Assembly: GCA_015057705.1 (NCBI GenBank)
Contig: SVDU01000003.1
Location: 124,001-188,000, forward strand
Origin: Paenibacillaceae bacterium
GTDB taxonomy: Bacteria; Bacillota; Clostridia; Lachnospirales; Lachnospiraceae
Length of the DNA: 64,000 bases
Direction: 5' to 3'
Below, one piece after another: positions 55,406-64,000 of the stretch (position 1 is the stretch's first letter; the number at the start of each line of letters is the position of its first letter). A model generated the notes under the pieces. That model was not told the DNA's origin, searched no databases, and saw only the letters and a list, made by a program, of their open reading frames with translations. Both the position numbers and the translations under genes were made by a program.

Positions 55406-56272
55406 TTATTGTAAATAGTCACTAATGCCCTTCCAGGCACCTTTTAAATGAAACTCAGTCTGTTTCTCACTCATATCGTGTGATTCCTGTTTTTTATACT
55501 TCTGTAGATGAAAACCGTCTTTTAAAACTGCAGAGGTTAAGATTCCTGGCTTCAGTACATGAACCGGACAGGAATAGATGCATCTTAAGCACAAAATACA
55601 ACGAAAGCCAAATTTGGGAATCCCCTGATTCATTTTAATGTTTCTGGTCGGGCACTTTTGTGAACATTTCCCACAGTGAGTGCATTGTGATGATGGGTGG
55701 ATGGAAGCGCCAAAAAATCTTGCACCCAGATGCTCTCCTTTTCCAAGCATTGCAAGAAAACGATCCTGGTGCTTTGCCATCAGAAAATGATGTTCTCCGT
55801 TCAGAATGTCTTCAATCATCTCTTTTGTTTTTTCAGGTAATATGCGTATTAATTGCTGATTAATTTCATCTCCCGCATTGGTACCGAAATTAGACGGCAT
55901 TACGATCATTTTTTCATAGATCAGATGGTATCCCTTTTTCTTTAACATCCGTCTGCAAGAAATGGTGCAGGCCGTATTAGGTGAGATATCCCCTCCTCCC
56001 GACACAGGTACGATCACAACCATGGTGCGACTGGATCCTGGAAGCCCTTTGACCCATTTTTCAGTAATGGAAGCCAGGCGGAAGGCGTATACAGGCGAAA
56101 ATATCACCAGGAGATCCGGCGGTTTTAAATTTCCCGGATCATGATTTTCCAGATTGACAGTTTTGCTTTCCAACCCCTTCTTTGCCAATTGTTGTGCGAA
56201 ACACAGACAGACTTCCTTTGTACAACCAGTCCCTGAAAAATAAGCCAGGGTGATTTTTTTTGGTTTTAACAA
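55406..56272 (-). CDS. EFR1 family flavodoxin-ferredoxin protein (second copy)
   Basis: The 288-residue protein has a flavodoxin-like half (TLAYFSGTGCTKEVCLCFAQQ) and a double 4Fe-4S half (CTHCGKCSQKCP, CILCLRCIYSCP). It is longer than the paralogue at 26800-27567 by a C-terminal tail. The TTG start at 56272 is chosen because GAGGGGG lies 8 bases before it. It is divergent from the DUF1858/GTPase/ATPase trio, which raises the possibility that it supplies electrons to that system. Confidence 0.82.
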   Translation of the reverse strand: MLKPKKITLAYFSGTGCTKEVCLCFAQQLAKKGLESKTVNLENHDPGNLKPPDLLVIFSPVYAFRLASITEKWVKGLPGSSRTMVVIVPVSGGGDISPNTACTISCRRMLKKKGYHLIYEKMIVMPSNFGTNAGDEINQQLIRILPEKTKEMIEDILNGEHHFLMAKHQDRFLAMLGKGEHLGARFFGASIHPSSQCTHCGKCSQKCPTRNIKMNQGIPKFGFRCILCLRCIYSCPVHVLKPGILTSAVLKDGFHLQKYKKQESHDMSEKQTEFHLKGAWKGISDYLQ

Positions 56273-56472
56273 TGTAATTCCCCCTCTGCGAATCAAATTT
56301 TTATGAATTTATCATACTATCTCAGTAATGAAAAAGATAGTGCCTTAACAAGAAATAATATCAAATCTATTAGAAATAAGTTGTTTTTACAACAAACAAA
56401 ACAGAGAAACTATGATATGATAAACGTAATTTCAGAAACCAACTTACAATTAACATAGAGAAAGGAAATATT

Positions 56473-57726
56473 ATGTCAAATTATTTTAAAGCTTCTGATA
56501 CGATCTTTCATATCACGGAAACCTATCCGGAGACCATTGAAGTATTTATTGCCAATGGTTTTGAGAATTTAAGCAATCCCGTTATGCGCAGAACTCTTGG
56601 AAAAACCATTTCTTTAGAAACAGCATTGGCTATGAGAAAGGTAAACCAGGAACTTTTTATAAAGAAACTGGAGGAAGTAATCGGTCAGAAGGCGCCCAGC
56701 CTGACGGATGGTCTCACTCCTGCACAATCAGAGAATAAAGGGGATATCCGTATCGAAGGCGTACTGCCCTGCCCCATCCGCATTCCTCTGTTAGAAAAAT
56801 TCGAATCCTGGCTTGAGGAGAATAAAGACTCCCTTGGATATGAGGTGGAGTATCATTTAAAATCTGCAAACCTGGGACTTGATGATGTAAAGGATCGGGT
56901 TATTTTAGCAGATGGAAATCCTGACGGTCTGTCAGACCTTTATCTTTCAGCCGGTTTTGATTTATTCTTTGACAAAAAGATGATTGGCGGTTATCAGGAT
57001 TTAGGCGTATTTGAAGATCTTTCCGGTATGGAGCATTTAAACACTGATCTTGATAATGAGAACATATCACTGAAGGACCCTAAAAACCAGTATGCCATCA
57101 TCGGAATTGTTCCTGCAGTTTTCATGGTTAACACCAATGTATTAGGAGATCGTCCATTCCCTGAGAGCTGGGCAGATTTAATGAAGCCGGAGTTTGAGAA
57201 CAGCATCAGCCTTCCCATGAAGGATCTGGATATGTTTAATGCATTTTTGCTTCACATCTACCGTTTTTATGGGGAAGAAGGAATCGAAAAGATGGGGAAA
57301 GCCCTCTTACAGAGTATGCATCCGGCTCAGATGATCAAATCCCACAAGTTAAAGGATGGAAATAAGATTCCCGCCATTACAGTTGCACCCTATTTCTTTG
57401 CAAGCATGACAGATGAGAAAAGCCCTATGCGTCCGGTATGGCCAAAGGACGGAGCCATAATCAGTCCGATTTTCCTGCTGGCAAAATCAAAGAATAAGGA
57501 TAAGGTAAAACCTTTCGTTGATCTTTTATATTCAAAAGATATTGGAGATATTCTTTCCTCCAACGGAAAATTTCCATCTACCAATCCCCTGGTGGACAAT
57601 CAGCTGAAACCCGACCAGAATTTCATGTGGATAGGCTGGGATTTTATACACAACAATGATATTGGAGAATTAATTAAAAAAATTGAAAAGCTGTTCTTTG
57701 CGGCTGCTCAGAAGGAGTTCTTATGA
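56473..57726 (+). CDS. DUF1858-domain protein fused to a cytoplasmic substrate-binding-like domain
   Basis: The 417-residue protein starts with a DUF1858-like helical domain (TIFHITETYPETIEVFIANG, to about residue 70). It is followed by a long domain built like a type 2 extracellular binding protein (EGVLPCPIRIPLLEKFESW ... LSDLYLSAGFDLFF ... AIIGIVPAVFMVNTNVL ... PESWADLMKPEF). There is no signal peptide or membrane helix, so this binding fold works in the cytoplasm, which is unusual. The stop overlaps the GTPase start. I do not know a characterised homologue; ligand capture for the following GTPase and ATPase is inferred. Confidence 0.7.
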   Translation: MSNYFKASDTIFHITETYPETIEVFIANGFENLSNPVMRRTLGKTISLETALAMRKVNQELFIKKLEEVIGQKAPSLTDGLTPAQSENKGDIRIEGVLPCPIRIPLLEKFESWLEENKDSLGYEVEYHLKSANLGLDDVKDRVILADGNPDGLSDLYLSAGFDLFFDKKMIGGYQDLGVFEDLSGMEHLNTDLDNENISLKDPKNQYAIIGIVPAVFMVNTNVLGDRPFPESWADLMKPEFENSISLPMKDLDMFNAFLLHIYRFYGEEGIEKMGKALLQSMHPAQMIKSHKLKDGNKIPAITVAPYFFASMTDEKSPMRPVWPKDGAIISPIFLLAKSKNKDKVKPFVDLLYSKDIGDILSSNGKFPSTNPLVDNQLKPDQNFMWIGWDFIHNNDIGELIKKIEKLFFAAAQKEFL

Positions 57727-58424
57727 ATCTGATTGTATTTTCAGGCCCGCCCTCTTCCGGTAAGACATCGGTCATTTTAAAAACGATTTCTTCCTTTCAT
57801 GATAAGAATATTAAAGTGGGCGTGGTAAAATTTGACTGTCTTTATACAGACGATGACGTTGCCTATGAAAAAGCAGGAATCCCTGTGAAAAAGGGCTTAT
57901 CCGGTGCTTTATGCCCGGATCACTTCTTCGCTTCCAATATTGAAGAGGTGGTTAACTGGGGAAATGAAGAAAAGCTTGATCTGCTTATTACAGAATCGGC
58001 AGGTCTGTGCAACCGCTGTTCCCCTTATTTAAAAGAAGTAAAGGGAGTTTGTGTAATCGACAACTTATCCGGTATTAATACCCCTAAAAAAATAGGTCCC
58101 ATGTTAAAATTCGCCGATTTTGTGGTGATTACCAAAGGAGATATCGTTTCCCAGGCAGAACGGGAGGTATTTGCTTCCTGTGTCAGCTCTGTAAACCCAA
58201 GAGCCATTACCATGCATGTAAACGGACTGACTGGACAGGGAGCTTACGAACTGGCAAGCCTTCTTTATGATGAAAACCAGAACATTCAGACCGTCCAGGG
58301 AATGCAGCTTCGTTTTCCCATGCCTTCCGCCCTGTGCTCCTATTGTCTTGGCGAAACAAGAATCGGAGAAGCCTATCAGATGGGTAATGTAAAGAAAATT
58401 GATTTAGGCGGTGATAAAAAATGA
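57723..58424 (+). CDS. HypB/CobW-like P-loop GTPase with CxxC motifs
   Basis: The 233-residue protein has P-loop GPPSSGKT (8-15), a Walker B-like LDLLITESAG (85-94) and the guanine motif TKGD (137-140), as in SIMIBI-class metal-insertion GTPases. Two Cys-x2-Cys pairs lie at 96/99 (LCNRCSP) and 205/208 (LCSYCLGE), with further cysteines at 39 and 64, all suited to metal or cluster binding. Start and stop both overlap neighbours by 4 bases. The metal and target are unknown. Confidence 0.8.
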   Translation: MNLIVFSGPPSSGKTSVILKTISSFHDKNIKVGVVKFDCLYTDDDVAYEKAGIPVKKGLSGALCPDHFFASNIEEVVNWGNEEKLDLLITESAGLCNRCSPYLKEVKGVCVIDNLSGINTPKKIGPMLKFADFVVITKGDIVSQAEREVFASCVSSVNPRAITMHVNGLTGQGAYELASLLYDENQNIQTVQGMQLRFPMPSALCSYCLGETRIGEAYQMGNVKKIDLGGDKK

Positions 58425-59428
58425 CAAATTTAAGCATAAAAAAACTGCTGGAGGAATATCCGTTTGCTGCTGCATATTTTGAACAGAATAAGCTTACAAT
58501 CGCTGGATTTGAAGATCAGACATTTGAGGAATTTTTAAATCATTTCTCAGAAGAAGAACTGGAAGATCAGGCGATTGATAAAGCAAAGCTTTTGTCTGAC
58601 CTGCCTGTGTATCTGGATCAGATGCGTCAGTTTTTGGGAATGGAAAATGACCGGCTGGTGCATTCTCTGACAATTTTACCAGGTCATGATAAATCAGGAA
58701 CAGTGGAAGGCTTTCAGGAACTGACCGTAGAAACATCCCAGATTATATCCATAGTGGGTCCTACCGGTTCAGGAAAAAGCCGGCTTTTAGCAGATATCGA
58801 GTGGACGGCTCAAAATGACACTCCTACCGGACGAAGCATTTTAATTAACGGCGAAGTCCCTGATATGAAGTGGCGTTACTCCTCAAATAACAAGCTGGTG
58901 GCCCAGCTTTCCCAGAACATGAACTTTGTTATGGACTTAACGGTAGTTGACTTTTTACGTATGCATGCGGAAAGCCGTATGGTTCAGGATCCTCAGTCTG
59001 TAATAGACCGGATTATTGCCGCAGCCAATGATCTGGCAGGAGAAAAATTTGAACTTTCTACTCCGGTTACCAGCTTAAGCGGCGGACAGTCCAGAGCGCT
59101 AATGATTGCAGATACTGCCATATTAAGCTCCTCTCCCATTGTCCTGATTGATGAAATTGAAAATGCCGGAATCGACCGGAAAAAGGCTTTAAAGCTTCTA
59201 GTGACATCAGATAAGATCGTATTGATGGCAACCCACGATCCTCTTCTTGCATTAATGGCAGATAAGCGGATTGTCATTAAAAATGGTGGTATTAATCATG
59301 TGATTTATACCAGTGAAGAAGAAAAACAGCTGCTTGATAAGTTGGAGAAAATGGATTCCCTTATCCAGACCGCACGCCAGGAACTTCGGTCAGGAAATAC
59401 ACTTTCTCCCGACCTGCTGGCAAATTAA
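58421..59428 (+). CDS. ABC-type ATPase with N-terminal DUF1858-like domain, no permease
   Basis: The 335-residue protein begins with a helical domain resembling DUF1858 (LSIKKLLEEYPFAAAYFEQN, residues 1-70), related to that of the first gene in the trio. The ATPase domain has Walker A GPTGSGKS (113-120), signature LSGGQ (219-223), Walker B VLIDE (241-245) and His272 in the H-loop. No membrane gene is nearby, so this is not an ordinary transporter; a soluble ATPase acting with the GTPase is more likely. A terminator follows. Confidence 0.78.
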   Translation: MTNLSIKKLLEEYPFAAAYFEQNKLTIAGFEDQTFEEFLNHFSEEELEDQAIDKAKLLSDLPVYLDQMRQFLGMENDRLVHSLTILPGHDKSGTVEGFQELTVETSQIISIVGPTGSGKSRLLADIEWTAQNDTPTGRSILINGEVPDMKWRYSSNNKLVAQLSQNMNFVMDLTVVDFLRMHAESRMVQDPQSVIDRIIAAANDLAGEKFELSTPVTSLSGGQSRALMIADTAILSSSPIVLIDEIENAGIDRKKALKLLVTSDKIVLMATHDPLLALMADKRIVIKNGGINHVIYTSEEEKQLLDKLEKMDSLIQTARQELRSGNTLSPDLLAN

Positions 59429-63433: not shown

Positions 63434-64000
63434 ATGAGTCATTCATTACTTGAAATTAAAGATTTAATTGTTTCTGTGGAAGATAAAATAATACTAAACG
63501 GAATTAATCTTTCCATAGGTTCGGGAGAACTTCATGTCCTTATGGGACCAAACGGAACAGGTAAATCCACTCTCGTATCTGCCATTATGGGGGATCCCCG
63601 GTTTCAGATTGAAAGCGGACAGATCCTTTTAGATGGGAAGGATATCACAGAAATGAAAGCAGACGAGCGAGCAAAAGCCGGTGTCTTTCTCTCATTCCAG
63701 GTTCCGGAAGAGATTCCGGGTGTCACTTTGGAAGATTTTCTCCGCACAGCGAAAGGCTCTCTTGAAAAACGTCCCCCAAAGATCCTGCAGTTTAAAAAGG
63801 AACTGAAAGAACAGATGAAAGCGTTAGATATGGATCCCAGTTATGCGGAACGGTACTTAAATGTTGGCTTTTCCGGCGGTGAAAAAAAGAAAACGGAGAT
63901 TCTTCAGCTTCTTATGCTACAGCCAAAGCTGGCTCTTTTAGACGAAACGGATTCCGGGCTTGATGTGGATGCAGTCCGTACCGTTACAAAAGGGATCCGG
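63434..64000 (+). CDS. sufC: Fe-S cluster assembly ATPase SufC, 5' part
   Basis: The first 189 codons are inside the window. Walker A is GPNGTGKST, the signature FSGGEKKKTEILQ and Walker B ALLDETDSGLDVDAV, the exact SufC variants. SufC powers the SufBCD scaffold for iron-sulfur cluster assembly. AAAGGAGGT lies upstream. The sufB and sufD genes should follow beyond the edge. Confidence 0.95.
   Translation, partial: MSHSLLEIKDLIVSVEDKIILNGINLSIGSGELHVLMGPNGTGKSTLVSAIMGDPRFQIESGQILLDGKDITEMKADERAKAGVFLSFQVPEEIPGVTLEDFLRTAKGSLEKRPPKILQFKKELKEQMKALDMDPSYAERYLNVGFSGGEKKKTEILQLLMLQPKLALLDETDSGLDVDAVRTVTKGIR

Follow-up and report, generated by a model that had tools for sequence, protein, structure and literature searches.

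A trio of overlapping genes at positions 56473 to 59428 of a 64,000-nucleotide stretch of contig SVDU01000003.1 (the whole stretch is called the window below) encodes a binding protein, a GTPase and an ABC ATPase. Comparison with related loci gives good support for placing this trio in the nitrosative-stress regulon of the CRP/FNR-type regulator HcpR and for tying it functionally to defence against nitric oxide (NO). The hybrid cluster protein (Hcp) reduces NO and is widespread among anaerobes. The best mechanism that we can offer, plausible and to be held tentatively, is that the trio supplies Hcp with iron or with parts of its cluster. As a conserved three-gene operon under an hcp-type site, the trio is a candidate for assembling or repairing the cluster, or for the handling of iron under nitrosative stress. 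No assembly factor for the unusual cluster of Hcp was found in the literature searched, including the accessible parts of PMC10210160 and PMC1274295. A sequence-only reading of this DNA had recognised no known system of such make-up; likewise, no description of the gene set was found in full-text searches, not all of them aimed at it, of literature from which subscription journals were largely missing, with supplements unread. The features on which the analysis rests are as follows.

56473-57726, plus strand: binding protein gene, an open reading frame (ORF) of 417 amino acids (aa) with DUF1858 and SBP_bac_6 domains
56494..56658, plus strand: DUF1858 domain of the binding protein (Pfam PF08984), residues 8-62
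56770..56772, plus strand: codon of Cys100 of the binding protein, within LPCP, where the first helix of the binding fold begins
57723-58424, plus strand: GTPase gene, an ORF of 233 aa, CobW/HypB/UreG-type, with CPDH, CNRC and CSYC motifs
58421-59428, plus strand: ABC ATPase gene, an ORF of 335 aa, soluble, with an extra N-terminal helical domain of approximately residues 1-82
56380..56393, no strand assigned: HcpR-type CRP/FNR palindrome GTTGT-N4-ACAAC, 93 bases 5′ of the first start codon

The 4-base overlaps between consecutive genes, already noted in the sequence-only reading, were confirmed from the ORF coordinates. When ORFs were called from the first start, the exact 4-base overlap was also seen elsewhere, between the binding protein and GTPase genes in 31 of 86 cases and between the GTPase and ATPase genes in 23 of 84. 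When 84,980 species, each represented by one genome, were scanned with a GTPase alignment, at least 528 relatives were confirmed, of which 80 were kept, from Lacrimispora, Tissierellia, Peptostreptococcus, Pectinatus and Leptotrichiaceae/Fusobacteriales bins. Together with 7 loci from a search of the family and the window itself, these made up the 88 loci compared, which span Clostridia, Tissierellia, Negativicutes and Fusobacteriales bins (L012 and L050 come from the same organism, and several others are near-copies). The ORF clusters contained a binding protein in 87 loci, a GTPase in 87 and an ATPase in 84, some of the misses being cut contigs. Recurrence across the 88 loci excludes chance and confirms the trio as a genuine conserved gene set. 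Within the family, the binding protein was present in 8 of 150 genomes searched, the window's own genome counted, and Lacrimispora xylanisolvens and a Hungatella bin lay near the window's GTPase on the GTPase tree.

Of the 83 upstream regions counted (5 of the 88, under 150 bases, were left out), 58 carried an HcpR-type palindrome 5′ of the trio. Three forms were seen, GTAACnnnnGTTAC (GTAAC) in 34, GTTGTnnnnACAAC (GTTGT) in 20 and GTTGCnnnnGCAAC (GTTGC) in 4; GTAAC alone is published, and the other two were defined after seeing the data. According to passages of the study by Rodionov and co-workers, the published form is the HcpR2 motif predicted 5′ of hcp in Clostridium and elsewhere (PMC1274295). 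Dinucleotide shuffles of the trio regions gave 0.03 sites on average and at most 1 in 100 runs, and other genes of the same loci had sites in 8 of 993 cases. The distance from the called start was 45-150 bases for 51 of the 58 sites. The site at 56380-56393 belongs to the GTTGT form and differs from the published GTAAC; it is the sole match of the three forms in the window. A re-scan of 24 of the 25 trio regions that lacked an exact site revealed one with a single mismatch in 13; sites with two mismatches numbered 19 among 28 regions scanned, compared with 6.75 in shuffles. Exact sites were absent from four further orthologues. They were found in 0 of 34 distant relatives, and therefore the distant groups are regulated differently from the trio.

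The same three forms were found 5′ of hcp itself in 21 of 40 hand-picked hcp genes (10 GTAAC, 6 GTTGT, 5 GTTGC), in 11 of the 20 taken from trio genomes and 10 of the 20 taken from genomes without it, which supports the two unpublished forms. Both trio and hcp regions were viewed in 15 trio genomes: the form was shared in 3 (G547, G568, G050) and differed in 2 (G054, G554), the site was present only at the trio in 3 and only at hcp in 6, and 1 genome had neither. L. xylanisolvens carries the window's form 5′ of the trio, of hcp and of the CRP/FNR gene adjoining hcp. The window's genome encodes an HcpR-like CRP protein (G000:C19:81683-82336) with 39% identity to a trio-adjacent CRP protein, and the same palindrome lies upstream of its gene. 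This gene (L222:4654-7905) faces a hemerythrin gene and, by reading, a cupin-like gene. A third site of the window's form in this genome is at a sugar-transporter-like locus. Genome-wide enrichment of the form was considered and discarded: 3 sites in the window's genome and 8 in a relative compare with 3 and 7 for a reversed control, so that only position and conservation carry weight.

A recent study of C. difficile established that hcp, frdX and NO tolerance are under the control of HcpR; in the portions of that study available, no gene could be assigned to the trio, and one unspecified ABC ATP-binding protein rises by 1.06 (PMC12915319). The trio shares with the HcpR regulon the palindromic CRP/FNR-type sites and the co-location with hcp and CRP/FNR genes, but main-text passages on the regulon, taken without supplements, name hcp, frdX and other genes and not the trio. 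The NnrR regulon of Bradyrhizobium includes a DUF1858 gene, according to part of the report (PMC6710368). DUF1858, a domain of unknown function, is now linked to nitrogen-oxide biology.

An Hcp gene was located 3′ of the trio, on the same strand and within 5 kb, in 28 of the 88 loci, and Hcp is thereby a candidate for the recurrent metalloenzyme that the proposed check of orthologue neighbourhoods was to look for. The order was chiefly trio, 80-aa protein, Hcp or trio, CRP/FNR, Hcp; overall, the Cys-rich protein of 80 residues was present in 22 loci and the CRP cluster in 12. On the GTPase tree, Hcp adjacency went through 7 changes of state over 70 labelled rows, and therefore it is not one inherited block. 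One trio-adjacent Hcp scored 760 bits on TIGR01703, and its tail matched DUF1858 as well as the overlapping TIGR03980 ("hybrid cluster protein-associated redox disulfide domain"). C-terminal DUF1858-like tails with CxxC were also noted on the Hcp of L174, L179, L184-L187, L191 and L201, in genomes with and without the trio (one tail was checked by profile, the others by eye). A special type of Hcp as the client was rejected, the ends of Hcp being alike by eye in trio and trio-less genomes.

Of 50 trio genomes searched (42 of the 80 species-scan loci plus 8 genomes of the family search), 49 encoded Hcp, the exception being the genome of the window. In the family draw, Hcp was present in 7 of 8 genomes with the trio versus 57 of 142 without it (one-sided Fisher 0.011). 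In the phylum draw, 286 of 398 genomes had Hcp, and the value for genomes with a direct trio (E below 1e-130, GTPase subfamily limits being set by eye on E-values) was 10 of 11, which was not significant (0.14). The window's genome measures 4.53 Mb, whereas five sisters (L018, L019, L021, L023, L024) have 5.5-5.9 Mb and all encode Hcp. The 12-kb hcp region of L. xylanisolvens gave no DNA match in the window's genome in a search made without a positive control. Gene loss or an assembly gap are possible explanations for the missing Hcp.

The binding protein has a DUF1858 domain (residues 8-62, 60.6 bits against a Pfam cut-off of 32.2; a relative of solved structure is 2fi0) followed by SBP_bac_6 (residues 153-395, 249.7 bits). 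By reading of the sequence no signal sequence was present, and DUF1858 begins already at residue 8, bearing out the earlier statement that an export signal is missing; in this respect the protein differs from that of a canonical ABC importer. Structure comparison placed the predicted fold nearest the ferric-binding proteins FbpA/FutA, and by sequence the protein is closer to organic-ligand proteins. The signal-transduction protein 6lkg was also among the fold matches, at rank 37. Cys100 was kept in 36 of 36 aligned proteins and stands at the start of a helix (100-121) in the model. Cys100 and Tyr307 appear to lie at suggestive places for putative iron ligands. The trio protein shares its predicted fold with FbpA/FutA but differs from those proteins in the DUF1858 domain in front, the invariant Cys where helix 1 begins, the lack of a visible export signal and iron ligands that are only putative.

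The likeness of the GTPase to HypB/CobW factors, which had been suggested from the sequence, was upheld by profile searches. The Pfam cobW match reached 44.6 bits (cut-off 20.7), placing the protein in the G3E/CobW family, and the best NCBIfam profile was HypB (E 5.7e-15, 55.4 bits), with UreG second; the score was below the HypB equivalog cut-off of 121.2 bits. Eight Cys/His residues were invariant in 28 aligned orthologues. Cys64, His67, Cys96, Cys99, Cys205 and Cys208 were kept in these 28 and also in 39 of 39 wider relatives, an alignment without L142 and L166 (two of 40 fetched loci, with no GTPase ORF). The protein has in common with HypB and UreG, the G3E metal-insertion GTPases, the cobW-family P-loop and a Cys/His metal-type site; unlike them, it has extra CxxC pairs and comes coupled with both a binding protein and an ABC ATPase. 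RecA matches in the structure search were dismissed as repeats of a single weak P-loop match.

The third protein matched ABC_tran with 57.2 bits (cut-off 25), and its Walker A lysine, signature, Walker B and H-loop were kept in 34 of 34 aligned sequences. Motif conservation thus showed the ATPase to be intact; the predicted model had a local confidence (pLDDT) of 85.5. DUF1858-like domains had been proposed for both the first and the third protein. This held for the first by Pfam, but for the third no Pfam match to DUF1858 was obtained at E up to 1. The N-terminal 82 residues are likely a distant DUF1858 relative, because hhalign aligned them with the DUF1858 domain of the binding protein at 67% probability (E 5e-5) over 36 columns. 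SufC-type and other permease-less ABC ATPases resemble the trio ATPase in being intact and having no membrane partner. In contrast to SufC-type ATPases, the trio protein has its own N-terminal helical domain, and sufC was not among its best 25 NCBIfam profiles. A chain of a Suf-like SMS complex was found among the fold matches at rank 26; as a clue to function the fold matches were set aside, all 50 rows shown being general to ABC ATPases.

In the mechanism that we favour, the trio would be an operon of the HcpR regulon in anaerobic Firmicutes and some neighbouring groups. NO or a related species would activate an HcpR-kind CRP/FNR regulator, and the trio would be made together with Hcp. The cytosolic, FbpA-like binding protein would hold iron or an iron-containing cluster part, perhaps via Cys100; the HypB/UreG-type GTPase would accept the metal in its Cys/His site and free it upon GTP turnover, and the lone ABC ATPase would power this transfer in the way that SufC serves Fe-S scaffolds. 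Docking of the parts to Hcp may rely on DUF1858-type domains; a DUF1858 tail is present on some copies of Hcp. The outcome would be a hybrid cluster assembled or repaired under NO. The analysis itself establishes the make-up and conservation of the genes, the adjacency and co-occurrence of Hcp, the palindrome, the metal-type motifs, the fold and the intactness of the ATPase. We infer what is carried, which way it passes, how the parts dock, the induction by NO and Hcp as the recipient. The sequence-only reading had guessed at a cytoplasmic machine that loads a metal or cofactor into a metalloenzyme; adjacency, co-occurrence and HcpR-type sites now name Hcp as the candidate enzyme, whereas the delivery itself is still a step that we infer.

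Several observations on neighbouring genes bear on the choice among explanations. The immediate same-strand neighbours of the trio were scanned for 69 of 73 proteins (the four dropped were two duplicates, a very long protein and a very short one), after Hcp, the 80-aa protein and the neighbours in the window itself had been set aside; the first 25 of 76 families were listed. Among the matches listed, a cyclic nucleotide-binding (CRP-type) domain was found in 8 of the 69 and ABC exporters with ABC_membrane in 6, and no importer-permease family and no kinase-type family matched two or more. Therefore, as far as these matches go, no importer permease recurs beside the trio, in contrast to a canonical ABC importer and in line with the earlier view that the ATPase has no membrane partner. 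A dedicated permease adjacent in most genomes, which would have refuted that reading, was not seen for the direct orthologues. In three Peptostreptococcus loci a flavodiiron gene (ODP plus flavodoxin), not hcp, directly follows the trio; in the two of these scanned the best NCBIfam profile was the anaerobic NO reductase flavorubredoxin, at 284 and 294 bits, below the cut-off of 635. A SUF Fe-S assembly operon is located directly 3′ of the trio in two loci (gaps of 199 bases in L027 and 191 in L029) and a few kb further on in five other Lacrimispora-type loci. These genes, with two further features of the window, are listed here.

L052:12144-13349: flavodiiron (NorV-like) gene, directly 3′ of the trio
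L078:12272-13468: flavodiiron (NorV-like) gene, directly 3′ of the trio
L096:11900-13099: flavodiiron (NorV-like) gene, directly 3′ of the trio
L027:11912-16426: SUF operon, on the trio strand
L029:11910-16811: SUF operon, on the trio strand
55406-56296 of the window, minus strand: EFR1-type flavodoxin/ferredoxin gene (NF038196), divergent from the trio
63434 to the window end at 64000 (cut), plus strand: SUF operon (sufC from 63434), past riboflavin genes

Three observations weigh against a trio dedicated to Hcp. Hcp cannot need the trio everywhere, because 57 of 142 family genomes without the trio have Hcp, and the trio is not present wherever Hcp is. The other two come from more distant GTPase/ABC pairs, which split into further groups, three of them often with a binding protein. 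In these three groups, genes for FecBCD- or BPD-type importer components lie near 20 of 26 loci (read from translated starts, with a Pfam check in four loci), and another group (L161-L169) pairs the ABC ATPase and GTPase with an Fe-S protein of approximately 220 aa that has a PF04060 FeS domain and is weakly like the gamma subunit of CODH/ACS (acetyl-CoA synthase), at 25 bits (one scanned). No binding protein was seen in L161-L169. Because the distant groups pair the GTPase and ABC ATPase with importers or an Fe-S protein, they speak for a general metal/cofactor core with changing clients. The nearest rival, which we hold to be somewhat unlikely, is one in which Hcp would be a regulon partner and not the client: the trio would salvage iron or repair Fe-S clusters in general under NO, the binding protein catching iron from nitrosylated clusters and the GTPase and ATPase returning it to several acceptors. 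The HcpR-type sites and the fold evidence fit this equally well, the window's genome has the trio without Hcp and an HcpR-like CRP gene facing a hemerythrin gene, the SUF operon adjoins the trio in two loci and lies nearby in others, and a flavodiiron gene replaces hcp in three. Nevertheless, Hcp is by far the commonest operon partner (28 loci), and DUF1858 is common to the binding protein and an Hcp tail, both of which argue against this rival.

The importer genes near the distant relatives (20 of 26 by reading, four by Pfam), with a DUF364 "heavy-metal chelation" gene in one cluster by Pfam and similar genes elsewhere by reading, would suit a cytosolic accessory that receives the cargo of a metal-chelate or cofactor importer encoded elsewhere. 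For the trio itself this is clearly unlikely, since no importer-permease family was listed for two or more of its 69 immediate neighbours and the distant relatives have exact HcpR-type sites in 0 of 34 cases. Insertion of nickel, cobalt or molybdenum into some other enzyme in the manner of HypB/UreG would agree with the ranking of HypB (55.4 bits) before UreG and with the CPDH motif, which we take to resemble the CPH motif of UreG; it is improbable, given the distance to the HypB cut-off of 121.2 bits, and no nickel enzyme was recognised among the 45 neighbour clusters listed. Least probable of all is a signalling module in which the binding protein would sense a small molecule and the two NTPases would relay the signal with no metal transfer: the 6lkg match and the closeness to organic-ligand proteins would be explained, but not the invariant multi-Cys/His set of the GTPase, and no kinase-type family recurred among the listed matches of immediate neighbours. 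We keep as the favoured reading that the trio hands iron or parts of the cluster to Hcp; this reading and general repair both argue from analogy. An extension of the favoured reading, which seems doubtful to us, would define an undescribed class of cytosolic metal-cofactor machines with a GTPase and ABC core and an exchangeable third partner (a DUF1858 binding protein, a plain binding protein or a CODH/ACS-subunit-like Fe-S protein), the window's version being the first dedicated loader or repair device for the Hcp hybrid cluster in the NO response. A core that combines with different partners could open up a family of machines for cofactors, for which no assays were found in the literature searched.

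Among the distant pairs L132-L160, DUF364, methyltransferase and NTPase_1 genes were noted in some loci (one of each scanned); these pairs and their importer genes are possibly metal or cofactor uptake systems. The 80-aa Cys-rich protein (MHEGCSG..., for example L013:6944-7186), whose gene often stands between the ATPase gene and hcp, had no Pfam or NCBIfam match, and its gene gave no match in seven genomes in a search without a positive control. In L089 and L097 a gene that by reading is chemoreceptor-like follows the 80-aa gene at the usual place of hcp, and perhaps serves NO-related taxis. A selenoprotein lead, an in-frame TGA found once in each of two family matches, was abandoned, both being at the protein end. 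The EFR1-type gene was seen in 8 Lacrimispora-type loci, the window counted, and may be co-regulated with the trio because the palindrome sits in the upstream region common to both.

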